The translations under genes and the position numbers were made by a program. This document shows, piece after piece, positions 40,546 to 62,115 of a stretch of DNA of 64,000 bases. The DNA lies in NCBI GenBank assembly GCA_030428355.1, contig JAUIBL010000002.1, positions 62,001-126,000 on the forward strand, written 5' to 3'. Source of the DNA: Alphaproteobacteria bacterium (GTDB lineage Bacteria; Pseudomonadota; Alphaproteobacteria; Rhodobacterales; Rhodobacteraceae). Numbering within the stretch: the stretch's first letter is position 1; each line of letters starts with the position of its first letter. The notes beneath the pieces were generated by a model. The model had not been told where the DNA came from. It made no database searches and was given only the letters and a program-made list of their open reading frames with translations.

Positions 40546-40765
40546 ACCGGTCTCCTCCGCAGTGAGTCCGACGACACAGGCCGTCGGTGATATGTCTCAA
40601 TCCTCTTGATGGCGCGGACCGGTGCGGAAGGGTTTGAAAAAGATGCGTCAGAGGAGTGATTTACATTCCCTATAAAAATCAGTCAGTTGGGGCGGATTTT
40701 TCTCAAATGTGCTCGCTGTTTGACGGCTGGATGGTAACCGGTTGGCCGGGGTGGTGGTTGCGGTC
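40546..40765 (-). promoter_or_regulatory. hupSLC promoter region
   Basis: The 220 bases between the hypF stop and the hupS start form the only sizeable gap before the structural genes. The segment around 40640-40700 is AT-rich (minus-strand GATTTTTATAGGGAATGTAA) and could hold a -10 element. No -24/-12 (TGGCAC-N5-TTGC) sequence was found, which agrees with a HupR lacking the sigma-54 loop. No clear HupR TTG-N5-CAA site was identified by eye. Confidence 0.5.
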
Positions 40766-44430: not shown

Positions 44431-45419
44431 TTCTGCTTGACCCTGAGCGTCGGCGTCACCTTGATCCGGTCCGCCACGGCGTTGTCCGACAGCCGCTTGG
44501 GCGTCGCTGCCTTGGACAAAGACGCCAGCGCCATGAACCACGCCTTGGGCATGTCCGACGGCAGGCCCACCGGGATGCCTGCGAATTTAGGGGTTTCGCT
44601 GAACGGATGGCTGGGTTCCTCGAATTCGGGTGCTGTGCAGTTGATGCAGGCATAGCCCGCACGGGTGCAGGAACTGCCGCCGTTCCAGCCGCGAATGTTG
44701 CAATCGCCCACCGCCTGCGTGCCCACACAGCCCAGATGCTCCATCATGCAGCCCATCTGGCCGGGCTTTTCGGCACTGGCCTTGTATTCGTAGAATTCGT
44801 TTTTCGGACAGGCATGGTGGACGAGGTTCTCGGCATAGAAGAGCGGGCGTTGAAGCGCGTCGAGCGCGTCTGCCCGCATCTCTCCTGCCGCGATCAGCAT
44901 CAGGGTTTCCGTCACCCAATCGGGATGCGTCGGGCAGCCTGCCACGTTGATCACCGGAAGGCCCGATCCGCTGCGAAAGCTCTCGGGCAGGGCACCACCG
45001 GGATTGCGGCCGTCATATTGGACGCCGATGGCCCCTGCCGGATTGCCGCCCGCCGATGTCACACCGCCATAGGTCGCGCAGGTTCCCACCGCCACCACAT
45101 GGGCGGCGCGCGGGGCAAGGCTCTGTACCCAATCGAGCATTGAACGCCCGGTGCCCGACAGCATCTGGAAGCGCCCTGTGCCTTTGGGTCCGGTCAGGAT
45201 GGAGCCTTCGACGCAAAGGATGTCGAGCGGCACGCGCCCGGTCTCCAAATCGTTCAGAATGCGCCGCACCTCGCCGCCGGTTTCCTGCGACAGGGCCGGG
45301 TGCCAGAGAAAGCGCAGACCGGCATTGTCGAGAAGGTCGAACACGCCCGGAGATTCCGCGTTCAGCAAAGACATCGTGCAGCCGCCGCAGCCTGCCGATT
45401 GCAGCCAGAGGATGTTCAT
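44427..45419 (-). CDS. hupU: H2-sensing regulatory hydrogenase small subunit HupU
   Basis: A 330-residue Fe-S small subunit (NILWLQSAGCGGCTMSLLNA, GTCATYGG, NVAGCPTHPDW, GWNGGSSCTRAGYACINC). It lacks the Tat signal and the membrane tail of HupS, so it stays in the cytoplasm. It partners HupV. The start overlaps the hupT stop (ATGA). Confidence 0.97.
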   Translation of the reverse strand: MNILWLQSAGCGGCTMSLLNAESPGVFDLLDNAGLRFLWHPALSQETGGEVRRILNDLETGRVPLDILCVEGSILTGPKGTGRFQMLSGTGRSMLDWVQSLAPRAAHVVAVGTCATYGGVTSAGGNPAGAIGVQYDGRNPGGALPESFRSGSGLPVINVAGCPTHPDWVTETLMLIAAGEMRADALDALQRPLFYAENLVHHACPKNEFYEYKASAEKPGQMGCMMEHLGCVGTQAVGDCNIRGWNGGSSCTRAGYACINCTAPEFEEPSHPFSETPKFAGIPVGLPSDMPKAWFMALASLSKAATPKRLSDNAVADRIKVTPTLRVKQK

Positions 45420-46738
45420 TCAGGGTCTCCTGCGGGCAGGCACAGCTCGAAACAACTGCCGTCCGGTCCTGTCCGGGCAAGGGTGAGCATGCCGCCGTTT
45501 TCCTGCGCGATCTTCTGCGAGATCGACAGGCCCAGCCCGGTACCTTTGCCGACGGGTTTGGTGGTGAAGAAGGGGTCGAAGATGGCACTGGCATGGGCTT
45601 CGGAAATCCCCGGCCCGTTATCCGTCACCTGCAGGACGGTTTTGCCGTCGCGCTCTTCGGCGGTCAGCGTGACCAGCGGGTCGGTGGTGTCGGCCAGCGC
45701 GTCGATGGCGTTCTGCACGAGGTTCATGACGATCTGCTGCACATGGCCGGGATTGCCCAAGGCAAAGGCCTGTGCCGGGCCGTACACGGCGATACGGACA
45801 GGGGTCTTGGTGCCGCGCACCACCCAATCGGCGGCGGTGCGGGCGGTCTGGACCATGTCAAAGCGGACCTTCTCGCCCGACCCATCGGCACTCAGGCGGC
45901 GCAGATCCTCGACGATGTCGCGCACGCGTTCGGCCCCGTCCTTGGCCCCATCGATGGCGCCGCGCAGATTTTTTACCGTTCGGTCAAGTTTCAGCTCGTC
46001 TCGCAGGGCGACCAGCTCCGGGCGGCTTTTGCCCGCTTGGACCGCCTCGAAATAGGTCTCGAACCGGCGGGTGTATTTTTCCAGCGCATGGGTGTTGGCG
46101 TAGACGAAGCTGATCGGGTTGTTGAGTTCATGCGCCACACCCGCGACCAGCCGTCCGAGAGAGGCCAGCTTTTCATGCTGCACCAGTTGCGCCTGCGCAT
46201 TCTGCAAGGCGGTGTGGCTGGCTTCGAGTTCGCGGTAGGCGTTGCGCAATTCGCCCAAGGGACGCCCGACAAGCACGACGCCTTCGCTGCGCCCGCGTGG
46301 GTCAAGACGCGGGCTGACGCTGACTTCGAGCGGTGTCGCGCCGTCCGGGGTGAGAAATCCCACCTCGACCACCCGAGGGCGGCGGTCGCGCATCGCTTCG
46401 ATGATGACATTGGTCAGGACCTGACCGGATGGCACGTCCAGCAGGTCGGTGAGTGGCGTGCCGGACGCCGGATCGGAGGTGCGGCCGAGGATGGTCGAAA
46501 ACGCGCCGCCGGTGCGTTCGATGCCCAGCGTGCGATCCACCACGATCAGCAGTTCCGAAATCGAGGACAGCACCGAGGCCATGAATTGGCGCATCTCATC
46601 CAGTTCGCGGTTCTGCGCCTCGAGCCGTTCCTGATAGTCCACCAGTTCGGAATAGGTCCGGTCCATGGCCGCAACCACGTCGCGCCAGGTCTGGTCGTCC
46701 AAAGCGTGCAGAGGCTCGTCCGGGGTCAGGGCTGTCAT
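45416..46738 (-). CDS. hupT: HupT sensor histidine kinase
   Basis: A 440-residue soluble kinase: an N-terminal coiled coil (about residues 25-50), a PAS domain (about 55-175), a second helix, the H-box LVAGVAHELNNPISFVYAN with the phosphorylated His, then N-, G1- and G2-boxes (VQQIVMNLVQNAIDAL, VTDNGPGIS, GKGTGLGLSISQKI). It is the first gene of hupTUV-hypF. In Rhodobacter, HupT phosphorylates and thereby inactivates HupR when HupUV sees no H2; the same is likely here. Confidence 0.95.
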   Translation of the reverse strand: MTALTPDEPLHALDDQTWRDVVAAMDRTYSELVDYQERLEAQNRELDEMRQFMASVLSSISELLIVVDRTLGIERTGGAFSTILGRTSDPASGTPLTDLLDVPSGQVLTNVIIEAMRDRRPRVVEVGFLTPDGATPLEVSVSPRLDPRGRSEGVVLVGRPLGELRNAYRELEASHTALQNAQAQLVQHEKLASLGRLVAGVAHELNNPISFVYANTHALEKYTRRFETYFEAVQAGKSRPELVALRDELKLDRTVKNLRGAIDGAKDGAERVRDIVEDLRRLSADGSGEKVRFDMVQTARTAADWVVRGTKTPVRIAVYGPAQAFALGNPGHVQQIVMNLVQNAIDALADTTDPLVTLTAEERDGKTVLQVTDNGPGISEAHASAIFDPFFTTKPVGKGTGLGLSISQKIAQENGGMLTLARTGPDGSCFELCLPAGDPE

Positions 46739-46893: not shown

Positions 46894-46909
46894 ATTCATT
46901 CGGATGAAT
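46894..46909. promoter_or_regulatory. PhnF-type operator 1
   Basis: ATTCATTCGGATGAAT is a palindrome with 6-base arms around TCGG, directly before phnF. The identical 16 bases occur at 53344-53359 before phnC and a variant at 61882-61899. The right arm provides a GGATGA ribosome-binding-like sequence 8 bases before the ATG at 46916, so a bound repressor would cover the translation start region. Autoregulation by PhnF is inferred. Confidence 0.75.
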
Positions 46910-46915
46910 TGGAGC

Positions 46916-47641
46916 ATGACACGAGATCGTTGGCGCGAGATTCGCGCATCCCTGGAAAAAGACATCATGGACGGCATTCTGGAACCCGGTTCGCAACTCC
47001 CGACGGAGCCGGAACTGGCGCAGATCCACATGGCCGGTCGGCACAGTGTGCGACGGGCCATCGCGGATTTGGCCAAGACCGGACATCTGAGCATCGAACA
47101 GGGTCGTGGCACCTTCGTGCAGCCGCGTCCCAAACTGGAATACACGATCGGTTCGCGGACGCGGCTGCGGCGCAACATGGCGTCACAGGGCGTCGATGTG
47201 TCGGGCCGCATGCTGGGGGTTGAGCGGATACCGGCCTCGGATCGGATTGCCGAACGGCTGGGCGTCGCGCCCGGCACCGAGGTGATTGCGACACGGCGGC
47301 TGACGTTGGCGGATGGTGTGCCGGTGTCCTTTGGCACGATCCATCACGAGGCCCGGCGGTTCGCCGCCTTCGCAGAGCGGCGCGAGGCGCTTGGGTCCAC
47401 GTCGCAGGTCTATGCTTCCTACGGGATTGCCGACTACCTGCGCGCCAGCACCGAAATGCTCGCCCGTCCCGCCAGCGCAGACGAGGCGCGGCAGTTGCGC
47501 CAGCATCCGGACATGCCGGTGATCGTCATCACCGCTGTCGATGCCGAGCTTGACGGCACGCCGCTGGCGATGAGCGAGGTCATCTGGTCGGCAGCACGGG
47601 TCCGGTTCACCATCGACACACGCGGAGATGTAGACACATGA
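46916..47641 (+). CDS. phnF: PhnF, GntR/UTRA family regulator of phosphonate metabolism
   Basis: A 241-residue repressor with an N-terminal winged helix (IMDGILEPGSQLPTEPELAQ, then RHSVRRAIADLAKTGHL.IEQGRGTFV) and a UTRA ligand domain (ASDRIAERLGVAPGTEVIAT, MPVIVITAVDAELDGTPLAM). The ATG at 46916 is preferred over one at 46904 that lies inside the operator. Its stop overlaps phnG (ATGA). It probably controls the operons with ATTCATTCGGATGAAT palindromes. Confidence 0.92.
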   Translation: MTRDRWREIRASLEKDIMDGILEPGSQLPTEPELAQIHMAGRHSVRRAIADLAKTGHLSIEQGRGTFVQPRPKLEYTIGSRTRLRRNMASQGVDVSGRMLGVERIPASDRIAERLGVAPGTEVIATRRLTLADGVPVSFGTIHHEARRFAAFAERREALGSTSQVYASYGIADYLRASTEMLARPASADEARQLRQHPDMPVIVITAVDAELDGTPLAMSEVIWSAARVRFTIDTRGDVDT

Positions 47642-48081
47642 CAGCACTGCCACAGACCCTGTCCGGATGGACCCACGCGCAGCAGCTTGATGTGCTGGCC
47701 CGGGCGGATGCCGCGCGGATCAAGGCCTTTGCCGAACCGCTGATCGCCGATCTGCCCGAGATCACGGTGATCGAGAACCGGACCGGACTGGTCATGCTGC
47801 CGATGCGGGACACCGCGCAGGGTACGCATTTCCATCTGGGCGAAGTGCTGGTGAGCGAGGCGCATGTGTCCGCCGGAGGGCAAGAGGGCTACGGGATGCG
47901 GCGGGTGCGGGACCTTGAAGCGGCGATGGCGATGGCACTAGTCGATCTGGCAATTGCGCTGGGCCACGCGCCCGAGGCTTGCGCCGCGTTCCTGTCGAAC
48001 GAGGCGCGGGCGCAGTCCGAGGCCGACACCGAAACCCTGCGCAAGGTCGAAGCGACCCGCGTCGACATGGAGACCTTCTGA
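47638..48081 (+). CDS. phnG: C-P lyase complex subunit PhnG
   Basis: A 147-residue PhnG. The core RTGLVMLPMRDTAQGTHFHLGEVLVSEAHV matches the family segment for which LGEVLV.E..V is characteristic, followed by GYGMRRVRDLEAAMAMALVD. In E. coli PhnG forms the (GHIJ)2 core that attaches ribose triphosphate to phosphonates together with PhnI, H and L. It is coupled to phnF (ATGA) and phnH (TGATG). Confidence 0.93.
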   Translation: MTALPQTLSGWTHAQQLDVLARADAARIKAFAEPLIADLPEITVIENRTGLVMLPMRDTAQGTHFHLGEVLVSEAHVSAGGQEGYGMRRVRDLEAAMAMALVDLAIALGHAPEACAAFLSNEARAQSEADTETLRKVEATRVDMETF

Positions 48082-48614
48082 TGAGACTGCAGCCTGTTCC
48101 GTCGGATTTCGAGGCGCGCTGCAATGCGACCTTCGACGCGGTGATGTGGGCGCTGGCGCGTCCGGGCGTGATGCGCGACCTACCTCAGGCGGGCCTTGCG
48201 CAAGTCGTCGAGGCACTGATCGACCGGGAATGTGCGGTCCATTGCCCGGATGAGGCGCTGGCCATGCTGGCGCGGCGCACTGGGGCGGAGCTTGTGGCGC
48301 CGGAGGCGGCGGATCATGTCTTTGCCGAAACGGTCACGCCCGAGATGCCGGACCGTCTGGCCTGCGGTTCCGATCTGCATCCCGAGGACGGGGCGACGCT
48401 TGTCGCCGGTGCCGTGTTCGGAGCCGGGCAGCGTGTGTGTCTGACTGGACCGGGTGTGGACGGTGAGGTGATCGTGATCATTGGCGGTCTGCCCGGTGAC
48501 TTCTGGCAGCGACGCGCGCGGGCGATGCGCTATCCGATGGGGTTCGAGATGTTGCTGGTCGATGGCGCGCGTCTGATCGGCGTGCCGCGATCCACGGTGG
48601 TGGAGGTGCTCTGA
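48081..48614 (+). CDS. phnH: C-P lyase complex subunit PhnH
   Basis: A 177-residue PhnH, slightly shorter than the E. coli protein. Typical are the start with FDAVMWALARPGVMRDLP, the central DLHPEDGATLVAGAV, LTGPGVDG and the ending YPMGFEMLLVDGARLIGVPRS. It is a structural partner of PhnG/I/J. Both junctions are TGATG. Confidence 0.93.
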   Translation: MRLQPVPSDFEARCNATFDAVMWALARPGVMRDLPQAGLAQVVEALIDRECAVHCPDEALAMLARRTGAELVAPEAADHVFAETVTPEMPDRLACGSDLHPEDGATLVAGAVFGAGQRVCLTGPGVDGEVIVIIGGLPGDFWQRRARAMRYPMGFEMLLVDGARLIGVPRSTVVEVL

Positions 48615-49678
48615 TGGCTTATGTGGCGACCCGCGGCGGCGAACGCGCGATCGAACAGTCCCAGCGGTTGTTCAAGGCCGAGATGGGCGAGATCACTCCC
48701 GAGCGTGTGGCCGAGATCCGCGCGGCGATGCCCTATCTCATCGACCGGGTGATGGGCGAAGCGTCGCTCTATGACGAAGATCTGGCGGCACTGGCCTTGG
48801 CGCAGACAGGCGGGGAGCTTTACGAGGCGGTGCTCTTGCTGCGGGCATGGCGGACGACGCAGCCGCGCATCGCTGTGGCGGAACCGGTGACGCAGGAGGG
48901 GTTGTTCACGCATCGGCGCATTTCGGCGGCGTTCAAGGACATTCCCGGCGGGCAGGTGCTTGGGCCGACGATGGATTATGCGCATCGCATCCTTGCGACC
49001 GAGGTTCTGGACGGGCAGGTGCACCGCCCCGATCCGGTGGAGCCTGCGGCAAGGCCCTCGCCCGCGCGGCAGCCGTCGGTCGCGGCGTGGCAGGCGGAGA
49101 ACGGTCTGCTGACCGGGGCTGTCCCTGACAAGACGGTCGGCAACGACATCCCCGACGTGACGCGCGAGCCGCTGCTGTTTCCGGCGAAGCGCGCGCACAC
49201 CTTGCAAAGCCTGGCACGGGCGGAAACGGGGGGCGTGCTGGCGCTGGGCTATGCCGCGCAGCGCGGCTATGGGCAGGCGCATCCCACGGTGAATGAGCTG
49301 CGTCTGGCCGAGGCCGAGATCGTCGTCACCCATCCGCGCGGAACGCAGTTCAGCGCCGGGCGGGTCAAGGTCAGCCAGGCCGAGGTGGTCGACAAGAAGG
49401 GTGACGGTCTGCGGCTGGGTTTTGCCGCGACATTGGGCTGGAACGAGGTCAAGGTGATCGCGGCGGCGACGCTGGACCTCAATGCCGAGGGTGCGCCGAA
49501 GGGGGCGCCGACCGAAGAGGAGTTCTTCCTCTATCACACCGAAGGCGTCGAAAGTTCAGGCTTCTGCATCCACTTCAAGCTGCCGCATTACGTGACCTTC
49601 CAGTCGAGCCTCGATGCGATGCGCGATGCCAAGGCCCAAAAGGCCGCCAAGGAAAAAAGCCCGGAGCCTGCGGAATGA
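48614..49678 (+). CDS. phnI: C-P lyase complex subunit PhnI, divergent
   Basis: A 354-residue PhnI, the subunit that transfers the phosphonate onto the ribose of ATP. Conserved: RGGERAIEQSQ, FKDIPGGQVLGPTMDYAHR, QRGYGQAHPTVNELR, and near the C terminus IHFKLPHYVTFQ with the two His that bind metal in the E. coli protein. The stretch LGWNEVKVIAAATLDL (about residues 270-285) stands where most PhnI read ERKAMAMALVDRAL-like, so this copy is noticeably divergent. It is coupled to phnJ by ATGA. Confidence 0.9.
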   Translation: MAYVATRGGERAIEQSQRLFKAEMGEITPERVAEIRAAMPYLIDRVMGEASLYDEDLAALALAQTGGELYEAVLLLRAWRTTQPRIAVAEPVTQEGLFTHRRISAAFKDIPGGQVLGPTMDYAHRILATEVLDGQVHRPDPVEPAARPSPARQPSVAAWQAENGLLTGAVPDKTVGNDIPDVTREPLLFPAKRAHTLQSLARAETGGVLALGYAAQRGYGQAHPTVNELRLAEAEIVVTHPRGTQFSAGRVKVSQAEVVDKKGDGLRLGFAATLGWNEVKVIAAATLDLNAEGAPKGAPTEEEFFLYHTEGVESSGFCIHFKLPHYVTFQSSLDAMRDAKAQKAAKEKSPEPAE

Positions 49679-50589
49679 CCCTTCAGACCCTCACCAAACC
49701 TTGGGAGCCGATGTCCTATGGCTTTCTGGACGGATCGGCCAAGCGCGAGATCCGGCGCAAGATGATCAAGGCAATCGCGGTGCCGGGCTGTCAGATGCCC
49801 TATGCCAGTCGCGAGGTGCCGATGGCGCGGGGGTGGGGCACGGGTGGTCTGCAGGTGTCGCTGACGCTGGTGAACCCGGCGATGCGGGTCAAGGTGATCG
49901 ACCAGGGTGCCGACGACAGCGTCAATGCCGCGTCCATCCGGCGGTTCATCGCGCGGGTGGCGGGCACGCCGACGACGATGGATACGCTGGAGGCCGATCT
50001 GATCCAGTCGCGCCACCGCATCCCGGAAGAAGTGCTGCGCGAAGATCAGGTGCTGGTCCTGCAGGTGCCGAATCCGGAACCGCTGCGCCCGGTGCAACCG
50101 AATATGTCGATTGCCCGACAGATGCACGCGGATGCGGATTACGGGCGGATGTGGCTGCAGCTTTACGAACAGATCGTCCGGTCCGGGCGCGTGATGCAGG
50201 GGGCGAGTTATCCCAGCCTCGTGCATGGGCGGCACGTCATGACCCCATCACCGATCCCGCGCTGGGACGTGCCCAAGCTACATATGGCAAAACACCTGAC
50301 CATTCTGTCGGCGGGACGGGAAAAGCGCATCTTCGCGGTGCCGCCCTTTACAAGGGTCGAACCGCTGGTGTTCTCGGACGTGCCCTACAAGGTCGAGGAT
50401 CATGCAGGTTTGACCTGTCATCGCTCGGGAACGCGCGGGTTTTTCATGAACGAGATCCCGCAGGATGACGGCAGTTCGGTCTTCGAAGTGTCGGACAGTG
50501 AATGGGGCGTCAAGGCGATCCGCCGCCGCGACGGAGAAGAGGTCGCCCTAGGCGAGACCTGGTACAAGAACGGGAAAATGCCGTCATGA
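49675..50589 (+). CDS. phnJ: PhnJ-like C-P lyase subunit lacking Fe-S cysteines
   Basis: A 304-residue PhnJ. The body is well conserved: VPGCQMPYASREVPMARGWG with Gly38 (E. coli Gly32), VKVIDQGADDSVNAASIRR, SRHRIPEE, QVPNPEPLRPV, GREKRIFAVPPFTRVEPL. In E. coli, Cys241, Cys244, Cys266 and Cys272 hold the [4Fe-4S] cluster and the thiyl radical. By alignment these are Cys248, Ser251, Val272 and Gly278 here. Only two Cys remain in the whole protein (39 and 248). A new C-terminal tail of about 25 residues follows. The frame is continuous into the overlap with phnK, so this is not a frameshift. Radical-SAM C-P cleavage appears impossible; the retained activity is unknown. Confidence 0.88.
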   Translation: MTLQTLTKPWEPMSYGFLDGSAKREIRRKMIKAIAVPGCQMPYASREVPMARGWGTGGLQVSLTLVNPAMRVKVIDQGADDSVNAASIRRFIARVAGTPTTMDTLEADLIQSRHRIPEEVLREDQVLVLQVPNPEPLRPVQPNMSIARQMHADADYGRMWLQLYEQIVRSGRVMQGASYPSLVHGRHVMTPSPIPRWDVPKLHMAKHLTILSAGREKRIFAVPPFTRVEPLVFSDVPYKVEDHAGLTCHRSGTRGFFMNEIPQDDGSSVFEVSDSEWGVKAIRRRDGEEVALGETWYKNGKMPS

Positions 50590-51383
50590 CGCTTACACTC
50601 GACGCACCGCGTATCGTCACGACGCATCCGCTCTTGCAGGTGCATCACGTGTCAAAATCCTATGGATCGGTCACGGCACTGCGCGATGTGTCCGCCATCG
50701 CCTATCCCGGCGAGGTTCTGGGCATCGTAGGGGAAAGCGGTTCGGGCAAATCCACGCTTCTGCGCATGATGAACCTCGGGGAAACGCCGGACACGGGCAG
50801 CTACACGCTCGACCTTCCGGATGTGGAGGGCAACCTTTTCGACCTCGACCGGTTTGCGCGGCGGATGCTGTGCGCGACGCGGATCGGGATCGTCTACCAG
50901 AACCCGCATCTGGGGCTGCTGATGAAACACTCCTCTTCGGGCAACGTGGCCGAACGGCTCTTGGTGGCGGGCGAACGCAGTTTTGCGACACTGCGCGCCA
51001 AAGCCACCGCCGCGCTTGAGGCGTCGGAGTTTCCTCTCGACCGGCTGGATGCGCCACCCATCGAATTGTCGGGCGGGATGCAACAGCGGGTGCAACTGGC
51101 CAAGGCCATCGCGCTGGAACCTGCGCTTCTTTTGCTGGATGAACCGACCACCGGGCTGGATGTCAGCGTACAGGCGCTGGTGCTCGATACGCTGAAGCGG
51201 CTGCAACAGGAACGGCGGATCACCATGGTGATCGTCAGTCACGATCTGGGTGTGATCCGCACTCTGGCAGATCGTGTGATGGTCATGCGCGGAGGCGCGG
51301 TCGTCGAGGCGGGGCTGGTCGACCAGATTTTCCAGGACCCGCAACACGCCTACACACAACAATTGGTGCATGCAAAGCTATGA
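50586..51383 (+). CDS. phnK: C-P lyase complex ATPase PhnK
   Basis: A 265-residue ABC-type ATPase that binds the C-P lyase core. Walker A GIVGESGSGKSTLLRM, signature ELSGGMQQRVQLAKAIA, Walker B ALLLLDEPTTGLDVSV. The PhnK-like insertion (TRIGIVYQNPHLGLLMKHSS) contacts the core in E. coli. It is coupled to phnJ and phnL by ATGA. Confidence 0.93.
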   Translation: MTLTLDAPRIVTTHPLLQVHHVSKSYGSVTALRDVSAIAYPGEVLGIVGESGSGKSTLLRMMNLGETPDTGSYTLDLPDVEGNLFDLDRFARRMLCATRIGIVYQNPHLGLLMKHSSSGNVAERLLVAGERSFATLRAKATAALEASEFPLDRLDAPPIELSGGMQQRVQLAKAIALEPALLLLDEPTTGLDVSVQALVLDTLKRLQQERRITMVIVSHDLGVIRTLADRVMVMRGGAVVEAGLVDQIFQDPQHAYTQQLVHAKL

Positions 51384-52099
51384 CCCCGGTTCTGGACATC
51401 GAAGGCCTGAGCAAAGGCTTCACCCTGCATCATCTGGGCAACCGGATCGAGGCGTTCGACGACATCTCGTTCACCGTCGGGGCAGGGGAATTCGTGCTGC
51501 TGAAGGGTGCGAACGGGGCGGGCAAATCGACCCTTTTGCGGACGCTCTACAGGTCCTATCTGCCGCGCGCGGGGGTGATCCGGTTCCATTCCGATCATGG
51601 CCCCATCGACCTTGCCCGCGCGGCGGATATTGACGTGGCGCATCTGCGGCGGACCGAGATCGGGTTCGTTACCCAGTTCCTGCAGGCGCGGCCCCGCGTC
51701 AGTGCCGAGGCCATCGTGGCCGAACCGCTGCGGTTGCATGGTGTGGCGGTGGAAGAGGCGCTGGCGCAGGCGCGGGAGGCTTTGAAAACCTTCGGGGTGA
51801 AGCCGGACTTGTGGAAGGCTTATCCCACAACCTTTTCCGGCGGGGAGCAGCAGAAGGTGAACCTCGCACGGGCGTTGATCCTGCCGCAGAAGCTATTGCT
51901 TCTGGACGAACCCACAGCATCGCTCGACGCGCATGCGCGCGCGGCGCTGGTGGCCCGTCTGGCCGAACTGAAGGCGGCCGGCACCGCGATGATCGGGGTG
52001 TTTCACCATCCCGGCGACGTCGAACAGTTGATCGACCGCGTGGTCGATCTCACCCCCGATTTCATCAAGAGCGAGGACCGGACCGATGTGGATCTCTGA
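51380..52099 (+). CDS. phnL: C-P lyase complex ATPase PhnL
   Basis: A 239-residue ABC ATPase. Walker A reads LLKGANGAGKSTLLRTLY, the Q-loop area EIGFVTQFLQARPRVSA is PhnL-specific, followed by TTFSGGEQQKVNLARALI and LLLLDEPTASLDAH. PhnL is needed for nucleotide-phosphonate formation. Its end overlaps phnM by 14 bases. Confidence 0.93.
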   Translation: MTPVLDIEGLSKGFTLHHLGNRIEAFDDISFTVGAGEFVLLKGANGAGKSTLLRTLYRSYLPRAGVIRFHSDHGPIDLARAADIDVAHLRRTEIGFVTQFLQARPRVSAEAIVAEPLRLHGVAVEEALAQAREALKTFGVKPDLWKAYPTTFSGGEQQKVNLARALILPQKLLLLDEPTASLDAHARAALVARLAELKAAGTAMIGVFHHPGDVEQLIDRVVDLTPDFIKSEDRTDVDL

Positions 52100-53273
52100 T
52101 GTGACGCTGGTGCTTCCCGACCGCGCGGTCAGCCGCGCGTCGTTGCGGATTGCGGACGGCAAGATCGCCGAGCTTGTCGAGCGTCCTGTGCCCGGCGGTA
52201 TCACCGGCCCGGACCTGACGGTCTATCCGGGTTTCATCGATATGCATGGCGACATGATCGAGCTGGAACTCGAGCCGCGCGCGCGGGTGGATTTCCCGAT
52301 GGAGGTGGCGCTGGCCTCGCTGGATGCGCGGCTTGCGGCGGCGGGTGTGACAACGGCCTATGCCGCGGTATCTTTCTCGCGCGGGGCGCGTGACGGGGAA
52401 CGTAGGTCCTATGCGCATACCAGCCAGGTCATCCGTCAGCTTCACGCGATGCGCGAGACCTGCCGGGTCGATCATCGCATCCACGCGCGGTTCGACATCA
52501 CCTTCGACAATGCGGTCGGTGTGCTGGAGCAACTGCTGGACGATGAGCAGGTCGATCTGGTGTCGCTGATGGATCACACGCCGGGGCAGGGGCAGTACCG
52601 CAATCTCGAAGTGCATGTGAAGAACAAGGCGGCGCATCACGGGATTTCGGAAACCGAAGCCCGTCAGATGGTGGCAAATACCATTGCGCTGCGGTCGCGT
52701 CCTCAGGAAATCCTGATGGGCAATATCCGCGCGGTGTCGAAAATGTGCGCAGATCACGGAGTGAGCCTTGCCAGCCACGACGATGATACCGTGTCCAAGG
52801 CGCATCTGATGGCCGACATGGGGGCGAGGATCGCCGAGTTTCCAGTGACGATGGAGGCCGCCAAGGCCGCGGTGGACAAGGGCATGATGACGGCGATGGG
52901 TGCGCCGAATGCGATGCGGGGGCAAAGCTATTCGGGCAACCTGTCCGCGCGGGTTCTGCATGCAGCGGGGCTGTTGCACATCCTTGCGTCCGATTACCAT
53001 CCCGGTGCCATGCTGGCTGCCGTCCACGCTCTTGCCCCAAGCGATCCCGACGGATTGGCCGGGGCGGTGCGGCTGGTGTCGGTCAATCCTGCGCGGGCGC
53101 TGGGGCTGTCGGATCGGGGGACGCTGGCCATCGGCAAACGTGCGGATCTGTTCGTGACCGATGCGCGTGGCCGGGTCGCACTGACGCTGTGCGGCGGGCA
53201 AGTCGTGTATCACAACGGGACGCTCGACCTCGCGGCGTCCAAATCTCGGGCATTTGCCGAGGCAGTGGGGTGA
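52086..53273 (+). CDS. phnM: alpha-D-ribose 1-methylphosphonate 5-triphosphate diphosphatase PhnM
   Basis: A 395-residue amidohydrolase that releases pyrophosphate from the ribosyl triphosphate intermediate. Motifs: GFIDMHGDMIELELEPRARV (metal), LVSLMDHTPGQGQYRN (typical PhnM), LASHDDDTVSKAH, EFPVTMEAAKAA, MGAPNAMRGQSYSGN and ILASDYHPGAML (late Asp). A second PhnM-like protein is encoded at 60555-61763. phnN and phnP were not seen in the window. Confidence 0.92.
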   Translation: MWISDVTLVLPDRAVSRASLRIADGKIAELVERPVPGGITGPDLTVYPGFIDMHGDMIELELEPRARVDFPMEVALASLDARLAAAGVTTAYAAVSFSRGARDGERRSYAHTSQVIRQLHAMRETCRVDHRIHARFDITFDNAVGVLEQLLDDEQVDLVSLMDHTPGQGQYRNLEVHVKNKAAHHGISETEARQMVANTIALRSRPQEILMGNIRAVSKMCADHGVSLASHDDDTVSKAHLMADMGARIAEFPVTMEAAKAAVDKGMMTAMGAPNAMRGQSYSGNLSARVLHAAGLLHILASDYHPGAMLAAVHALAPSDPDGLAGAVRLVSVNPARALGLSDRGTLAIGKRADLFVTDARGRVALTLCGGQVVYHNGTLDLAASKSRAFAEAVG

Positions 53274-53343
53274 GAAGTTCAACGAAACTTCATTCGACGG
53301 TGCACTGACTGTTACGTTCGAGACCTAGGATCAGGCCAAGGAA

Positions 53344-53359
53344 ATTCATTCGGATGAAT
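53344..53359. promoter_or_regulatory. PhnF-type operator 2
   Basis: The same ATTCATTCGGATGAAT as before phnF ends 4 bases before the phnC ATG. Its right arm supplies a GGATGA 6 bases ahead of the ATG. An additional half-site TTCATTCG lies at 53289-53296. It suggests separate PhnF control of phnCDE. Confidence 0.75.
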
Positions 53360-53363
53360 CGCC

Positions 53364-54164
53364 ATGGCCGGAACCCTCTCGCTCTCGAACGTATCCCGGA
53401 TTTTCGGAGACACCCGCGCGGTTGACCGCGTTTCGCTCGACATCGCGCCGGGCCAGTTCGTCGGGGTGATCGGTCGCTCGGGGGCGGGCAAGTCGACCAT
53501 GCTGCGGCTGGTGAACCGGTTGATCGACCCAAGCGAAGGGTCGATCTCGTTCGATGGCACGGAGATCACGGCCCTCAAGGGCAAGGCGCTGCGGGCATGG
53601 CGGCGCGACTGCGCGATGATCTTCCAGCAGTTCAACCTTGTCGACCGTCTGGACGTGCTGACCAATGTCCTGATCGGGCGTCTGGCCGAGCATGGCTTCT
53701 TCAGTTCCATGTCGATGCGGTTCACGGATGAAGAGCGCACGATGGCGCTGCAGGCGCTGGACAGGTTGGATCTTGTCCCACAGGCGCTGCAGCGCGCGGG
53801 TACGCTTTCAGGTGGCCAGCAGCAACGTGTCGCCATTGCCAAAGCCTTGGTGCAACGGCCGAAAATCATGCTGGCGGATGAACCCATCGCGTCGCTTGAT
53901 CCTGCCAATGCCACGCTTGTGATGGACGGTCTCAAGCAGATCAACACCGAAGACGGGCTGACCGTGCTGGTCAACCTGCACACGCTGGACACCGCACGCG
54001 CCTATTGCGACCGCATCATCGCGATGCGCGCGGGGCGCGTCTTTTTCGACGGCACGGCGGCTCAACTGACCGACGATGTCAGGCGCGACATCTACGGCAC
54101 GGACGGTCTGCGCGATTTCAACGAGGCCGTGACCTCGACCCAGCGCCTTGCCGTGCCGGCCTGA
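53364..54164 (+). CDS. phnC: phosphonate ABC transporter ATP-binding protein PhnC
   Basis: A 266-residue ABC ATPase: [72 protein letters not shown]. It energises phosphonate uptake with PhnD and two PhnE permeases downstream. The start directly follows the operator. A 36-base gap leads to phnD. Confidence 0.95.
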
Positions 54165-54200
54165 CCCAACTGCCACCTGCAACCCAAGGGGAGATGACCC

Positions 54201-55121
54201 ATGAAACTGTTGACCACCACCGCACTGATCGCCGTTCTGGCCACCGCTGCCGCAGCCGACGGCTGGAAAGACGACTACCAGGTTCTGAAGTTCGGCATCC
54301 TGTCCGGCGAGAACGAAAAGGACCGCCTGATGCGTAACGAACCGCTGCGCGTCTATCTCGAAGACACGCTGGGTGTTCAGGTCGAGATCTTCACCGCAGG
54401 CAATTATGACGGCGTGATTCAGGCGCTGGCCGCCGACCAGATCGAGATCGCGCGCCTTGGGTCATCCGCCTATGCGGCGGCCTACACGGCGACCAATGGC
54501 GGTGTTGTGCCGACGCTGACCGGCAAGGCCCTGAACGGGGACACGGGTTACTACTCCATCGTCGTGACCCGCTGCGACAGCGGCATCAAGAGCCTTGAAG
54601 ACGCCAAGGGCAAGGTTCACGCCTTTGCCGATCCGGACAGCACCTCGGGTTATGCGGTGCCGTACTTCAACATGGTGACGCGCGAAGGCTTCAAGCCGGA
54701 AGAGTTCTTCAGCACGGTGACGTTCTCGGGCAGCCACGAAGCTGGCGTGACAGGTGTTGTCAACGGCACCTTCGACACGGCGGCCACCTATCAGGACAAC
54801 GACACTGATGGCGTCTATCAGCGCATGGAAGACAAGGGCATGATCGAACCCGGTCAGGTCTGCAAGATCTGGCAGAGCCCAGAAATCACGTCCGGCCCGT
54901 GGACCTTCCGCAAGAACCTGCCCGAGGCGCTGATCGAAGACGTGACAGCCGCCATCGAAAGCTTCCCGACGGCTGATCCCGAAGGCTACAAGCTCTATTC
55001 GTCCTGGACCGCGGACAACCCCAACCCGGATGACGGCTTCGTACGTGTTGATCACGAGCGGTACCAGTGGATCGTCGACATGCGCGCGTGGATCAAGGAA
55101 CAGCGTCGTTCGGGCTCCTGA
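54201..55121 (+). CDS. phnD: phosphonate-binding periplasmic protein PhnD
   Basis: A 306-residue binding protein with Sec signal (MKLLTTTALIAVLATAAAADG). The ligand-site pattern FADPDSTSGYAVPYFN is the hallmark of PhnD, with TFSGSHEAGVTGVVNGTFD following. AAGGGGAG precedes the ATG. The exact ligand among phosphonates or phosphate esters cannot be read. Confidence 0.94.
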   Translation: MKLLTTTALIAVLATAAAADGWKDDYQVLKFGILSGENEKDRLMRNEPLRVYLEDTLGVQVEIFTAGNYDGVIQALAADQIEIARLGSSAYAAAYTATNGGVVPTLTGKALNGDTGYYSIVVTRCDSGIKSLEDAKGKVHAFADPDSTSGYAVPYFNMVTREGFKPEEFFSTVTFSGSHEAGVTGVVNGTFDTAATYQDNDTDGVYQRMEDKGMIEPGQVCKIWQSPEITSGPWTFRKNLPEALIEDVTAAIESFPTADPEGYKLYSSWTADNPNPDDGFVRVDHERYQWIVDMRAWIKEQRRSGS

Positions 55122-55224
55122 GCCTGTGATGTGACGGGGTCTCTGCATGCCCCGATCCCCATGGCGTATGTCCCTGCGCCATGGGGCTTTGTCGCCTGAC
55201 GTCCCGCGCCGCCCGGAGCCGAAC

Positions 55225-56172
55225 ATGACAGCCACAGCCGATTTCAACGCTATCCCCGCGTCCGACCGCGCCTCTGCCCTGTCGGCCTTCGAGGCGGAGT
55301 TCGCAGCGCAGCGCCGATATGCGCGCCGTGCCTGGGCCATCGGCACGGGTCTCTTCCTAATCGTTTTCGTTCTGACGGCGTGGATCGGCGATTTCTTCAA
55401 GGTCACGCAGGTGACCATGCCGGACGGATCGCGCGACTGGCGCTGGATCATCCCGGCGGGCATTCCGCGTCTTGGCGAATATATCGAAAAGACCATCCCG
55501 ACTCTGCGTTGGGACACCCTTGGCACGGATTTCGCCAACTGGTTCTGGCGCTGGAAGATCTGGATGGAGCTGTTGTTCGAAACCGTCCTAATCGCCTTCA
55601 TGGCGACGGTGTTCGGAGTGATCGGCGGGTTTCTTCTGTCCTTCCCGGCCTCGCGGAACCTTGCGCCCAACACATGGGTCCTTTGGATCACCCGCCGCTA
55701 TCTCGAGATCGCGCGGACCGTGCCGGAGCTGGTCTGGGCGCTGATCTTCGTCTTCTGTTTCTCCGTCGGGCCGATGGCCGGGGTTCTGGCCATCGGGCTG
55801 CATGCGGCGGGCGCGCTGGGCAAGCTGTATTCCGAGGTCAACGAGAACATCGACATGCGCCCGCTCGAAGGTGTGAAAGCCGCCGGTGGCACATGGTTCG
55901 ACCAGATCCGCTACGGGGCGGTGCCGCAGGTGATGCCCAACATCATCAGCTACACGCTGCTGCGCTTCGAGATCAACGTGCGCGCCTCGTCGATCATCGG
56001 TTATGTCGGCGCGGGTGGTCTGGGGCAGGAATTCCGCACCGCCATGAGTTTTCAGGAATACACCGACCTTTCGGCGCTCTTCGTCATCATCTTCGTGACC
56101 GTGATGATCATCGATTACGGGTCGGAAAAGCTGCGCCACCGGATCATTCACCTTGAGGAGACCCGGCCATGA
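55225..56172 (+). CDS. phnE: phosphonate ABC transporter permease PhnE (1)
   Basis: A 315-residue membrane permease with about five to six segments (for example GTGLFLIVFVLTAWIG). The coupling region is EGVKAAGGTWFDQIRYGAVP followed by VRASSIIGYVGAGGLGQEF, typical of PhnE. The start ATG at 55225 is chosen within a longer open frame. It overlaps the second PhnE by ATGA. Confidence 0.93.
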   Translation: MTATADFNAIPASDRASALSAFEAEFAAQRRYARRAWAIGTGLFLIVFVLTAWIGDFFKVTQVTMPDGSRDWRWIIPAGIPRLGEYIEKTIPTLRWDTLGTDFANWFWRWKIWMELLFETVLIAFMATVFGVIGGFLLSFPASRNLAPNTWVLWITRRYLEIARTVPELVWALIFVFCFSVGPMAGVLAIGLHAAGALGKLYSEVNENIDMRPLEGVKAAGGTWFDQIRYGAVPQVMPNIISYTLLRFEINVRASSIIGYVGAGGLGQEFRTAMSFQEYTDLSALFVIIFVTVMIIDYGSEKLRHRIIHLEETRP

Positions 56173-57026
56173 CCGTCACCCCGGAACAGATCGCTGAGGC
56201 CCGCGCAAACGTGCCGCTGGCCTTTCAGGCACCGTTGCCGGTGCGCCTGCGCCGCTATGCGCTCTGGGCGTTTTTCGTGGGGCTGTTCTGCTGGTGCCTT
56301 TACGATTTCAACTTCTCGCCCGCCCGCATCTGGGAAGGGCTGGGGCGCTTCGGCACCGTCGCGAGCTTCATGTTCCCGCCCTACATATGGACAAGCTGGG
56401 CAGAGTTTTCGGAAATCCTGAACGGTCTGGGTGAGACCCTCGCGATTGCGTTTCTGGGCACGGTGCTGGGCGCGGTCTTTGCCTTTCCGCTGTCCTTCCT
56501 CGGGGCCAAGAACATCAACCGCCTGAACTGGCTGCGCTTGTCGACGCGGCGTGGCTATGACGTGATCCGCGCCTTCGAGACGCTGATCCTTGCGCTGATC
56601 TTCATACGCGCCTTCGGGCTGGGGCCGCTTGCGGGCATCCTTGCCATCGCGGTGAGCGAGATCGGCACCTTTGCCAAGCTGTTCTCCGAAGCCATCGAGA
56701 ACACGTCGAACAAACCCGTTGAAGGGGTGAAAGCCTCGGGTGGGTCGCGGTTGCAGCAAATCCGGTTCGGCATCGCCCCCCAGGTCAACCCGGTGATCCT
56801 GTCGATCCTGCTCTACAACTTCGAGTCCAACGTGCGGTCGGGCACGATCCTTGGCATCGTCGGGGCTGGCGGGATCGGGTTTCTGCTGTCCGACCGCATC
56901 GCGGCCTATCGATGGGGCGAGGCGTGGTCGATCATCTTCCTGATCATCGCCATGGTCTACGTGATCGACTGGCTGTCCGGCCTGATCCGGCAACGGCTGA
57001 TCGGAAAGACGGACTTGGCGAAGTGA
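56169..57026 (+). CDS. phnE: phosphonate ABC transporter permease PhnE (2)
   Basis: A 285-residue paralogue of the preceding permease (EGVKASGGSRLQQIRFGIAP, NVRSGTILGIVGAGGIGF). The two likely form a heterodimer. A 161-base gap to the next gene shows no clear hairpin or palindrome. Confidence 0.93.
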   Translation: MTVTPEQIAEARANVPLAFQAPLPVRLRRYALWAFFVGLFCWCLYDFNFSPARIWEGLGRFGTVASFMFPPYIWTSWAEFSEILNGLGETLAIAFLGTVLGAVFAFPLSFLGAKNINRLNWLRLSTRRGYDVIRAFETLILALIFIRAFGLGPLAGILAIAVSEIGTFAKLFSEAIENTSNKPVEGVKASGGSRLQQIRFGIAPQVNPVILSILLYNFESNVRSGTILGIVGAGGIGFLLSDRIAAYRWGEAWSIIFLIIAMVYVIDWLSGLIRQRLIGKTDLAK

Positions 57027-57187
57027 GAAAGGCCCGGATCGACTCTGGTCCGTGGCGACAGTCAGGCGCGACCGCTCTGGTGGGACCGCATCTTCCGTAC
57101 CGCGGAACTTGATGAGCCGGGCGGCAAGGCCGACCCGCTTGGTCAGGGACTTCCCAAAAGTTTGAACACCATGACGGAGACACCAAG

Positions 57188-57817
57188 ATGAGTGGCGCTG
57201 GATCGAAGAAACACCTCACTGAAGCCCCGAACATCCATCCCGAAGCCAGCGTCGTGGACTGCGCACTGGGGGCTTGGACCGAGGTGGGCAAAGGCACGTC
57301 GATGCGGGCGTCGACCATGGGCGACTGGTCCTATATCACTCAGGATTGCCATGTCGTCTGGACCAGCATCGGCAAGATGTGCTCGATCGCGAATTCCACG
57401 CGCATCAATCCCGGCAATCATCCGACCTGGCGCGCAGTCCAGCATCACAGCGTCTACCGGGCCGAGGCCTATGGGCTGGGCGAGGACGACCACGACTTCT
57501 TTGACTGGCGCAAATCGGATTGGGTGACGATCGGTCATGACGTGTGGATCGGCCACGGTGTGACCGTGACGGCAGGTGTGACCATCGGGACTGGTGCCGT
57601 CATCGGTGCGGGGGCAGTGGTGACAAAGGATGTGGCACCCTATACCGTTGTCGGCGGCGTCCCCGCTCGGGTGATCAAACGCCGCTTTACCGAAGCCCAG
57701 GCCGACGCACTTCAGGACATTGCCGTCTGGGATTGGTCACGAGACAGATACCGTGCGGCCTTGCCGGACATTCGGGCGCTGGAGATTGATGCCTTCATTG
57801 AAAAATACCGCCGCTGA
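57188..57817 (+). CDS. phosphonate-cluster hexapeptide-repeat acyltransferase
   Basis: A 209-residue left-handed beta-helix transferase of the type repeatedly found in phn operons. Hexapeptide repeats run through [20 protein letters not shown] and [20 protein letters not shown], after an N-terminal [20 protein letters not shown]. The acceptor is unknown, perhaps an aminophosphonate. The next gene starts inside its last 29 bases. Confidence 0.88.
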
Positions 57818-59662: not shown

Positions 59663-60478
59663 TCATACGACAAGGCCCAGCTCGGATAGGTATCTGTAAC
59701 CAATTGGAATATGGTCTTTATTCCGCAGCTCGAGGACAAGATGTGGGGCACTTTGACACTCTGCAAGCGCACGGAAAACGGCGATCCATTCGATCTCGCC
59801 TTCTCCCGGTGCCCAATGCCGGTCAGCATGACCGTCGACATCCTGCAGATGCACATGGGCCAGTTGGTCGCCCGCGTCTCGGACGAAATCCTCGACCGGT
59901 GGGGCGCCGGACATGCGGCGGGCAAGCTGCGCGTGGCCGGTGTCGATGGACAGTGCAATGGCCTTGGAGCCAAAACTGTCCAACATGGCGCGGCGTGTTT
60001 CGGGGCGCACATCTTGGATGTTCTCGATCACGAGGGTCTGACCGGCCGCTTCGGCCGCCTTTACAACCGGGCGCAGGGTGGCATGGATCCGGTCCAGCTT
60101 GGCTTCTGCATAGCCTTTCCAACTGAAGACATTGTTCTGGAACCACAGCGTATAGGGGGAATGCAGCACCATCTGGCGTGCCCCGATCCGGTCCGCAGCT
60201 TCAAGCGCCTTGAGAAGGCGGGCCGTTATCAGCGGTTGCAGTTCCGGGTCCTTGTTGTCGATGTCCAGCCCTTCGAACGGGCCGTGGATGCCGACGCGGC
60301 CTGTATGCCCGTCCAGAGCCGCCTTTACGGCTGCGATGCGGTCCTCGTATTCGGTCGTGAGGGCGGTATGGGACATGAAATCCTGAATTTCGATGTCGCG
60401 GTCTGCGTCGAACAGCCAATCGCGGTGATCCGCGATCTCGGCGGCTTTGAGGCAGGCTCCGATCTTGAGCGGGGTCAT
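59663..60478 (-). CDS. sugar phosphate isomerase/epimerase-like TIM-barrel protein
   Basis: A 271-residue AP-endonuclease-2-like barrel (KIGACLKAAEIADHRDWLFD; GRVGIHGPFEGLD; MVLHSPYT; LVIENIQDVRPE; SIDTGHAQLARRM; LAHVHLQDVDGHADRHWAPG). Metal ligands fit His, Glu, Asp and His of xylose-isomerase-type barrels. The start at 60478 follows AAGGAGA. It lies downstream of the second phnM in a unit with a PhnF-type site, so action on a sugar-phosphate from the phn pathway is likely. Confidence 0.83.
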   Translation of the reverse strand: MTPLKIGACLKAAEIADHRDWLFDADRDIEIQDFMSHTALTTEYEDRIAAVKAALDGHTGRVGIHGPFEGLDIDNKDPELQPLITARLLKALEAADRIGARQMVLHSPYTLWFQNNVFSWKGYAEAKLDRIHATLRPVVKAAEAAGQTLVIENIQDVRPETRRAMLDSFGSKAIALSIDTGHAQLARRMSGAPPVEDFVRDAGDQLAHVHLQDVDGHADRHWAPGEGEIEWIAVFRALAECQSAPHLVLELRNKDHIPIGYRYLSELGLVV

Positions 60479-60515
60479 GCGGGCGTCTCCTTGAAGCATG
60501 GTCTGCAGTCAGGTC

Positions 60516-60547
60516 GTCATGGCACGGCACTGCAACCGCGCCATGAC
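60516..60547 (-). repeat. inverted repeat between the second phnM and the TIM-barrel gene
   Basis: GTCATGGC (60516-60523) and GCCATGAC (60540-60547) form perfect arms, extendable by CGG/CCG with one bulge, in the 76-base gap between the two genes. There is no T-run, so it is more likely an mRNA-stabilising or attenuating structure than a terminator. Confidence 0.5.
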
Positions 60548-60554
60548 AGAGGGT

Positions 60555-61763
60555 TTATCCTGCGGGGTGGCCACGATAGGCTGGGCGTCCCGCCACCCAT
60601 GTGCCGCGAATGGCCGGCGGATGACCGTCGGGCCAATCCACCAGCACGAGATCGGCGCGGTTGCCGACGGCGATCTGACCGCGATCCGTCAGGTTCATGG
60701 CCCGTGCTGGCCCGGACGACACCAGCGACCAAAGGCGCAGACGGTCGGCGCGGCGGTCAGCGTCCAGACGGGACACGGCCGCGAGCATCGCGGGGTAGAA
60801 GTAATCCGAGGCCAGCGCATCGCAGAGCCCCGCCTCGACCATGTCGCCCGCGGCCAGAGAGCCGATATGGCTGCCCCCGCGCGCGGCATTCGGCGCGCCG
60901 AAGATGATCGTGTCGCCATGGGCGCGCGCAGCCTCGGCAGCTTCCAGCACCATCGGGAATTCGGCCACGCAGGCACCCCGGTCGCGGAACCAGGCGCGGG
61001 TTTCGGCGCGGGTGTCGTCATGGCTGAGCATCGGCGCGCCTTTTGCGCGGGCCATCGCCGCGACGGTTTCGATGGCATTCGGCACGTCACTGCGCCGGTC
61101 CCAGACCTCCCCCAGCAGGGCGATGTAATCGTCCTCGCTGATGCCCGAGCGATGGGCCTTGGACGCCGTGCGTTTGCGCATGCGGTCATCATCGAGTTCG
61201 GCCACCGTGAAATCCGGGCTGAATTCGAACGCGCGATCCTGGATCGGCACGTCATAGGCCCGCATGGTCATCGAGGTGTGATCGTTGAAGGCGACCGACG
61301 GCAGCAGCGGTGCGTCCAGCGCCCATTCGATTGTTTCGAGCGCCTCGAACGCGAAGGTTTCCCAGCGCAGTTGCACGCGGTTCTCGACCAACAGCCGTGG
61401 GGCGAGATCGCGGATCGCCTGCATGACCTCACGGCCTCGTGCCACATCCCGCAAGCCCGGTTCCCAGCCCAGCGTAATGGCGTGATAGGCCGTGGCGATC
61501 CCGTTTGTGGCGAGCTGGCGGTCGGTGTCGAGGACGGCGGCTTCGGTTGGGAAGAACACGCCGGGTCGGGGCATCAACTGCCGTTCGAACGCATCTCCAT
61601 GCGCGTCGATCAGGGCAGGGGCCAGAATGAGACCGTGCGCGTCGATCACCTCGCCCTGCACCGGGCCACCGATCTCGGCGATGCAGCCATCTGCGATGGT
61701 GACGGTGGTGTCGTGGATGCCATCCGGCAGGTAGACGCGTGCGCCTGCAAAGGTCTGTATCAC
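60555..61763 (-). CDS. second PhnM-like amidohydrolase
   Basis: A 402-residue paralogue of PhnM. Motifs: ALIDAHGDAFERQLMPRPGV (closer to the E. coli form PRPKVDW than the first copy), FNDHTSMTMRAYD, MLSHDDTRAETRAWF, AEFPMVLEAAEAAR, FGAPNAARGGSHIGSLAAGD and LASDYFYPAMLA. The start is taken as GTG at 61763 after AAGGAAG; the frame is open 30 codons further. It is convergent to the main phn operon. Confidence 0.85.
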   Translation of the reverse strand: MIQTFAGARVYLPDGIHDTTVTIADGCIAEIGGPVQGEVIDAHGLILAPALIDAHGDAFERQLMPRPGVFFPTEAAVLDTDRQLATNGIATAYHAITLGWEPGLRDVARGREVMQAIRDLAPRLLVENRVQLRWETFAFEALETIEWALDAPLLPSVAFNDHTSMTMRAYDVPIQDRAFEFSPDFTVAELDDDRMRKRTASKAHRSGISEDDYIALLGEVWDRRSDVPNAIETVAAMARAKGAPMLSHDDTRAETRAWFRDRGACVAEFPMVLEAAEAARAHGDTIIFGAPNAARGGSHIGSLAAGDMVEAGLCDALASDYFYPAMLAAVSRLDADRRADRLRLWSLVSSGPARAMNLTDRGQIAVGNRADLVLVDWPDGHPPAIRGTWVAGRPAYRGHPAG

Positions 61764-62115
61764 CAGATCTTCCTTCCCAAATCTCTTCGTCAGGACCTTA
61801 GAGCTGCATAGGCGTACCGTCGCGCACAAGAGACGCGCCTTGTTCCCGTCCACCTTTCAGGAATCATGAGGGTCCCGTGTGTTCATTCGTCCGGATGAAT
61901 CGCCGAAAGCTGTGGCAGTCTCTCAACGCTTTGATGACGTGTTTGTAACATCGTGCAAGTTGTGTCGCGCCGACGAGGCGTCCCATATCCATCCGGCTTG
62001 GGTCGGCGCGGCGGACGGGCTCGTGTCCATCGAAAAGGCTCATCTGGTTTGCCCTTCAACCTGGACGCTGTCGGAGGTCGCCACGACATGCGGGTGTGCA
62101 GGCCTATTCGAACTG
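61764..62115. other. 352-base gap with a PhnF-type site
   Basis: This stretch separates the second phnM from the 3' end of the LysR gene. It contains the operator-like element at 61882-61899 and presumably the phnM promoter on the minus strand. Open frames here on the plus strand are not protein-like and run into the antisense of the LysR gene. No RNA gene or repeat was recognised. Confidence 0.5.
61882..61899. promoter_or_regulatory. PhnF-type operator 3, variant spacing
   Basis: TTCATTCGTCCGGATGAA has 8-base arms with one mismatch around TC. Relative to the two perfect operators the centre is longer, while both arms and the following CGCC are the same as before phnC. It is about 120 bases upstream of the second phnM start. 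Confidence 0.6.

Follow-up and report, generated by a model that had tools for sequence, protein, structure and literature searches.

A phn operon of the Rhodobacteraceae represents a C-P lyase subfamily whose PhnJ lacks three of the four iron-sulfur and thiyl cysteines

The window analysed here, a stretch of 64,000 nucleotides (positions 62001-126000 of contig C12 in a 3.56-Mb genome of the Rhodobacteraceae), carries a complete operon of the carbon-phosphorus (C-P) lyase type, phnF-G-H-I-J-K-L-M-C-D-E-E-act (46904-57817), in which all seven genes of the phnGHIJKLM core are adjacent (47638-53273). The phnJ gene of this operon (49675-50589, plus strand) translates to a PhnJ of 304 amino acids without internal stops. 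In the alignment with the E. coli PhnJ sequence from PDB (window residues 14-277, E value 2e-79), C248, S251, V272 and G278 stand at the places of Cys241, Cys244, Cys266 and Cys272, the cysteines of the iron-sulfur cluster and of the thiyl radical; Cys248 is the only one of the four that is retained. The initial annotation had described this loss, residues and coordinates included, and the alignment and the intact frame show that it was right. Radical C-P lyases are of the EC 4.7.1.1 type, and the four cysteines by which they are recognized read C, S, V and G in the window protein. Hereafter, PhnJ proteins with this cysteine-poor pattern are called variant and those with all four cysteines (CCCC) canonical.

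The PF06007 profile of PhnJ matches the window protein with 384.5 bits (cut-off 25) over residues 13-279, and its structure model (mean predicted local distance difference test score, pLDDT, 85.6) has the PhnJ fold. Residues 248-284 make up the remodelled C-terminal cluster domain, which is confidently folded in the model. Among 11 sequences, the ratio of nonsynonymous to synonymous polymorphism (pN/pS) is 0.21 in this altered domain and 0.10 in the core, indicating purifying selection. The altered domain shows a conserved signature of its own, and its predicted fold is unchanged. The E. coli Gly32 aligns with Gly38 of the window protein, a residue whose presence says nothing about a radical. 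The gene is embedded in its operon by overlaps on both sides: phnI ends at 49678, after the phnJ start at 49675, and phnK starts at 50586, in an ATGA overlap with the phnJ stop codon TGA (50587-50589), in agreement with the downstream overlap noticed before. The features of the operon, all on the plus strand, are the following.

46904..47641, plus strand: phnF, regulator of the phn operon (45% identical to the annotated phnF of Haematobacter, L035; same place in many alphaproteobacterial variant operons)
47638..48081, plus strand: phnG (PF06754, 76.2 bits)
48072..48614, plus strand: phnH (PF05845, 103.6 bits)
48614..49678, plus strand: phnI (PF05861, 356 bits; conserved zinc ligands H219, H328 and H333 in E. 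coli numbering)
49675..50589, plus strand: phnJ variant without three of the four iron-sulfur/thiyl cysteines (PF06007, 384.5 bits; alignment; model)
50416..50526, plus strand: remodelled C-terminal cluster domain of PhnJ, residues 248-284 (C248, S251, V272, G278, K280; alignment, model)
50586..51383, plus strand: phnK, ATP-binding cassette (ABC) ATPase (PF00005; ATGA overlap with phnJ)
51380..52099, plus strand: phnL, ABC ATPase (PF00005; Asn in Walker A and an FHH motif, as is typical of the subfamily)
52086..53273, plus strand: phnM, ribose phosphonate triphosphate (RPnTP) diphosphatase (NF011988, 436.5 bits, cut-off 369)
53364..54164, plus strand: phnC (73% identical to the annotated phnC of Haematobacter, L035)
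54201..55121, plus strand: phnD, substrate-binding protein (PF12974, 180.5 bits; PDB relatives PhnD and PtxB)
55225..56172, plus strand: phnE1, permease (start chosen; an open ATG lies upstream at 55147)
56169..57026, plus strand: phnE2, permease (comparison with related loci)
57188..57817, plus strand: act, phn-associated hexapeptide transferase (TIGR03308, 272.1 bits, cut-off 201.65)

The same cysteine pattern recurs well beyond this genome. Of the 295 family genomes, 147 give a PhnJ match and 16 (own included) carry the variant at 77-100% identity, with the three cysteines missing in 16 of the 16 read; the remaining PhnJ matches of the family, among those listed, are 46-52% identical to the window PhnJ. 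Named and plasmid-borne relatives were found in Rhodobacterales and Hyphomicrobiales (70-93% identity), in Chloroflexota, Deinococcales and other bins (61-66%), and on Thermus plasmids (59-62%). Closed plasmid records, such as Thermus thermophilus HB8 pVV8 and Haematobacter massiliensis pOT1-5, show the same pattern, and public plasmid annotation labels the variant as a C-P lyase subunit. We aligned 122 distinct PhnJ rows, drawn from at least 141 matches and mostly chosen for their resemblance to the window protein. All four cysteines stand in 52 rows and no more than one in the other 70; no row has two or three. The 70:52 ratio is no population frequency, since the rows were selected by similarity and one source consisted of the best 80 loci. 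In two Anaerolineae rows the first cysteine is gone too, with Asp in its place. In the phylum of one Anaerolineae bin (G333), 27 of 301 genomes have a PhnJ at an E value of at most 1e-60, 9 of them variant, 18 canonical and none both. Cysteines were read at all 28 places of this check (26 fetched, plus G333, L100, and G338, L105), and the identity band matched the cysteine state in every case. In the phylum of the window's genome, 5 of 398 genomes, own included, have the variant as defined by identity bands rather than by residues; G531 and G413 were read and are cysteine-poor. We conclude that the cysteine-poor PhnJ is a subfamily of Rhodobacterales, Hyphomicrobiales, Thermus, Deinococcales and Chloroflexota bins, and not a result of decay or error; our confidence that it is a real, functional and non-canonical C-P lyase subfamily is high. 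We found no report of a PhnJ lacking these cysteines in the open-access literature, and one paper, in its accessible part, mentions two major PhnJ clades, but the proteins it shows have the four cysteines conserved (PMC11978286).

The rest of the complex shows both constancy and change. The PhnI zinc ligands and the PhnJ residues contacting 5-phosphoribosyl 1,2-cyclic phosphate (PRcP), whose roles we take from the accessible part of PMC9947105, are unchanged in the variant, the latter being invariant in 70 of 70 rows. In PhnL, the Walker A Ser is replaced by Asn in 67/67 variant rows versus 0/49 canonical ones, and His replaces the Asp after the switch His (FHD to FHH) in 62/65 variant versus 0/48 canonical rows with letters (canonical rows in these residue comparisons count E. 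coli twice). A PhnL tree of 87 of the 115 rows, which omits near-copies and four long-branch rows (L134 is out as a long branch and L122 is in), places the variant on one side of a branch with full support. The PhnJ tree without the C-terminal domain (92 of 122 rows, near-copies omitted) requires two changes, with a Bacteroidetes-bin row (L118) standing apart from the main group. At most this hints at a second independent loss of the cysteines, since L118 sits on a long branch and comes from a bin contig of 3,182 bases. The canonical long-branch rows L122 and L134 fall among the variants near Thermus in this tree, so that PhnJ does not prove a single loss for Thermus and the rest. Quick trees of PhnI and PhnK need two changes each.

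Two simple ways of restoring a cluster were considered and rejected. Ligands could have moved to another subunit; a scan of the variant PhnG, H, I, K, L and M for conserved cysteines left only PhnI Cys326 as notable, and this residue, present in 66/69 variant letters but also in 11/55 canonical rows, was dropped as a relocated ligand. A small cluster protein could be hidden in the operon; the gaps from phnF to phnE2 are too short for it, the largest being 103 bp (55122-55224), and the one between phnE2 and act is 161 bp. Nor did any gene beyond the core prove common to all compared variant operons, by similarity to a limited reference set. What the loci share across phyla is phnGHIJKLM, usually accompanied by phnCDE and the hexapeptide transferase. 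Neighbours of phnJ were recognized by their resemblance to genes of the window and to a small reference set, and more of them may exist.

The variant can be set apart from each of the related systems. It differs from the E. coli C-P lyase PhnGHIJKLM (PDB 4xb6, 7z15-7z19) by the replacement of Cys244, Cys266 and Cys272, by the new C-terminal signature, and by the Walker A and FHH changes of PhnL. The window's own genome encodes a canonical C-P lyase on another contig, whose PhnJ (G000:C16:4574-5386) is 48% identical to the variant, has all four cysteines, and lies near phnI, K, L, N, M and a DUF1045 gene, whereas the variant operon of the window has neither PhnN nor DUF1045. By eye, an open reading frame resembling HAD-family hydrolases lies between phnI and phnJ in that canonical operon (L001, 2603-3412, minus strand). 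Haloarchaeal C-P lyases (Haloarcula, Natrinema), linked to epimerase-family and HAD-family genes, have PhnJ proteins among the closer canonical ones (54-56% identity) but keep CCCC. Another divergent, plasmid-borne phn complex, that of Proteus and Labrenzia, also keeps CCCC, in a PhnJ 38-44% identical to that of the window. In the stretches read of Proteus mirabilis pPM35-1 (L173) and Labrenzia pTHAF191b_d (L174), phnGHIJK are accompanied by a second ABC ATPase, no phnM is annotated, and upstream come an ABC transporter of the iron type and a small gene annotated as hypothetical.

How could such a complex work? Use of the described iron-sulfur and thiyl mechanism is very unlikely, because the cysteine loss is subfamily-wide and under selection and the whole core operon is kept; the earlier view that this is not the known radical chemistry therefore holds. 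What is kept (ribosylation, PhnM, the zinc/PRcP site and the ABC pair) and what is lost (the iron-sulfur and thiyl cysteines) separate just where the published pathway falls into its two chemical halves. The initial annotation had gone further, proposing selection for something else, either a non-radical use or the cleavage of another bond. The retained core operon, regulator and transporter are as it said, and the new role itself is inferred. The reading we tentatively favour from sequence comparison, at just under an even chance, is a non-radical C-P-lyase-like complex that would ribosylate a phosphorus compound and release a ribosyl cyclic phosphate; for non-radical PRcP-forming chemistry as such, the case is about even. 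PhnGHI(L) would join the phosphorus compound to the ribose of ATP and PhnM would take off pyrophosphate. On the cysteine-poor PhnJ, driven by PhnK and PhnL, the ribose 2'-OH would then attack the phosphorus at the zinc site, and the group on phosphorus would leave by ionic chemistry, without iron-sulfur cluster or thiyl radical, giving the usual PRcP. Fitting substrates would be those with a leaving group that needs no radical cleavage, namely phosphate esters, compounds with phosphorus-nitrogen or phosphorus-sulfur bonds, and phosphonates yielding a stabilized carbanion; reaction, product and substrate class are all inferred. It is possible, if on balance doubtful, that this multi-phylum branch cleaves P-X bonds, perhaps even C-P, at the PhnI/PhnJ zinc site without iron-sulfur cluster, S-adenosylmethionine (SAM) or thiyl radical.

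The genes handling PRcP support an ionic release of PRcP in Alphaproteobacteria. DUF1045 has been proposed, in the accessible part of PMC8235418, to be a phosphoribosyl cyclic phosphodiesterase. PhnN and DUF1045 occur in four of the four alphaproteobacterial genomes having only the variant, not always beside the operon. Several observations weigh against the proposal, however. In one genome (G328) the PhnN and DUF1045 genes are on contigs other than that of phnJ. Among the 13 carriers not labelled Alphaproteobacteria (one of which, L103, has a title without phylum), PhnN exceeds its cut-off in none, DUF1045 is found in one, weakly, and PhnP-like matches of 103-115 bits, under the cut-off, in four, the others being weaker or absent, so that the apparent support from PRcP handling is thin outside Alphaproteobacteria. 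The first cysteine (E. coli Cys241) is retained in 68 of 70 variant rows with no known role, and the equivalent of Gly32 in 70 of 70; continued use of a glycyl radical would predict the latter, which may also be structural. Elsewhere the neighbouring genes have a phosphonate character (PhnCDE, PhnF, act), and in two bins a gene for the phosphonoacetaldehyde hydrolase PhnX (TIGR01422, over cut-off) directly follows act (L098, 14277-15101; L106, 10201-11019); both fit a phosphonate substrate. The clues on the substrate are thus split: phosphonate-type transporters and two PhnX genes point one way, and the Ugp- and Opp-type transporters, phosphodiesterase-family gene (PF01663) and PfkB-type kinase near the variant operons of rhizobia point the other. 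PF01663 also includes phosphonoacetate hydrolase and is therefore no proof of an ester substrate. The gene after act differs between loci, and in L108 it is of the tyrosine-phosphatase family. Near the variant operon of Thermus thermophilus HB8 pVV8 (L033, 19034-19837) we observed a YmdB-family metallophosphoesterase, with a homologue near the L040 operon. This protein is a candidate cyclic phosphodiesterase; YmdB acts on cyclic nucleotides.

Some of these observations would suit an enzyme that keeps radical or at least true C-P cleavage and so can still break unactivated C-P bonds. Some other cofactor or protein might then start the radical, or the need for the known cysteines might be smaller than believed. 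We consider this unlikely, even with the invariant Gly32, the phosphonate-type transporter and regulator, the two PhnX neighbours and the 17 carrier genomes in which the variant is the only PhnJ found. The 30 Å between the cluster site and Gly32, described as an open problem in the accessible parts of PMC9947105 and PMC7916636, also leaves room for it. However, the variant PhnG, H, I, K, L and M have no extra conserved cysteine cluster (PhnI Cys326 being shared with canonical rows), and no extra gene is common to all compared operons within the limited reference set.

Alternatively, the variant complex could be a ribosylation helper, making ribosyl-phosphonates from other substrates that the canonical PhnJ of the same cell cleaves, which we regard as quite unlikely. 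A further PhnJ match occurs in 15 of 16 family carriers, and one of canonical score in 33 of 36 named alphaproteobacterial carriers (one second copy in two pieces); all 30 second copies read from named carriers have four cysteines. Yet canonical PhnJ was not found in 17 of 64 distinct carrier genomes, including 13 of the 13 not labelled Alphaproteobacteria, and the 301-genome phylum likewise has no genome with both forms. The 64 comprise 16 family carriers (one, G074, without canonical copy) and 49 others (16 without), minus one shared genome recognized by identical DNA (L007 = L064). Second copies in the set of 49 were judged by profile score before the 30 were read; in the family set, that of G231 was counted although it is absent from the listed matches. 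G074 is 99% complete; the set of 49 and the 301-genome phylum come without completeness values, and many of these genomes are bins. A single absence therefore counts for little, but the pattern is uniform. The initial annotation had raised the possibility that the complex depends on a canonical phnJ elsewhere: such a gene does exist in this genome, but because 17 carriers show none, the dependence cannot be general.

It is decidedly unlikely that PhnJ has become non-catalytic, a scaffold for PhnK/PhnL or a regulator of the ribosylation module whose ribosyl-phosphorus product is used as such. PhnK docks on PhnJ, according to the accessible part of PMC9947105, and PhnL has changed in step; against this, the PRcP-contacting PhnJ residues are invariant and all four alphaproteobacterial variant-only genomes have PhnN and DUF1045. 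Finally, an artefact or decaying pseudogene, which three missing catalytic residues might suggest, has virtually no chance of being the explanation: the intact frame, the strong purifying selection, and the recurrence of the pattern in closed records as well as in 70 different rows from more than one phylum refute it, including the sequencing error that had been named as a possible refutation.

Beyond the operon, the window contains a neighbouring cassette on the minus strand.

59663..60499, minus strand: TIM-barrel protein of the AP_endonuc_2 family (PF01261, 104.6 bits)
60555..61766, minus strand: second phnM homologue (NF011987, 364.2 bits, cut-off 253)

The nearest NCBIfam model of the TIM-barrel protein is CbiR, at 36.5 bits, under its cut-off of 105. 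In relatives, the cassette (59663-61766) continues into another phosphonate-type ABC transporter. Two small adjoining genes (57786-58352 and 58349-58831) form a split permease pair: the first matches positions 18-130 and the second positions 174-275 of the 294-position ArsP_1 permease profile, thus one half each, and either match is under cut-off. The variant clade had been expected always to occur with the cassette of TIM barrel and second phnM and with the permease pair; this linkage turned out to be only local. The cassette adjoins only part of the alphaproteobacterial variant loci and sometimes a canonical operon (L058, L059), and the permease pair, within the flanks read, was seen at the window locus, at L082 and, next to a canonical operon, at L060. 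TIM-barrel relatives of at least 70% identity over near-full length occur in 10 of 295 family genomes, nine variant carriers and one non-carrier; a further match (77%, partial, with a stop) lies in a genome without the variant. On the other side of the operon, by eye, the genes at 39445-45419 (minus strand) look like a set for a NiFe uptake hydrogenase, including a HypF-like protein, followed by a sensor-kinase-like gene (45416-46738).

These results bear on how C-P lyase itself works. C-P cleavage by PhnJ is unsettled, since in structures the cluster site and the proposed glycyl radical are 30 Å apart and PRcP is at the zinc site (PMC9947105, accessible part). A subfamily that has dropped the cluster ligands yet keeps the zinc/PRcP site pulls the two halves of the machine apart, so that the role of each can be tested directly. 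If cleavage at the zinc site is true, this site would be the true place of product formation, explaining the 30 Å gap of the canonical enzyme. Moreover, when phnJ genes are counted as a proxy for methylphosphonate breakdown and aerobic methane production, some of those counted may have no part in either; cysteine-aware annotation would correct such counts.
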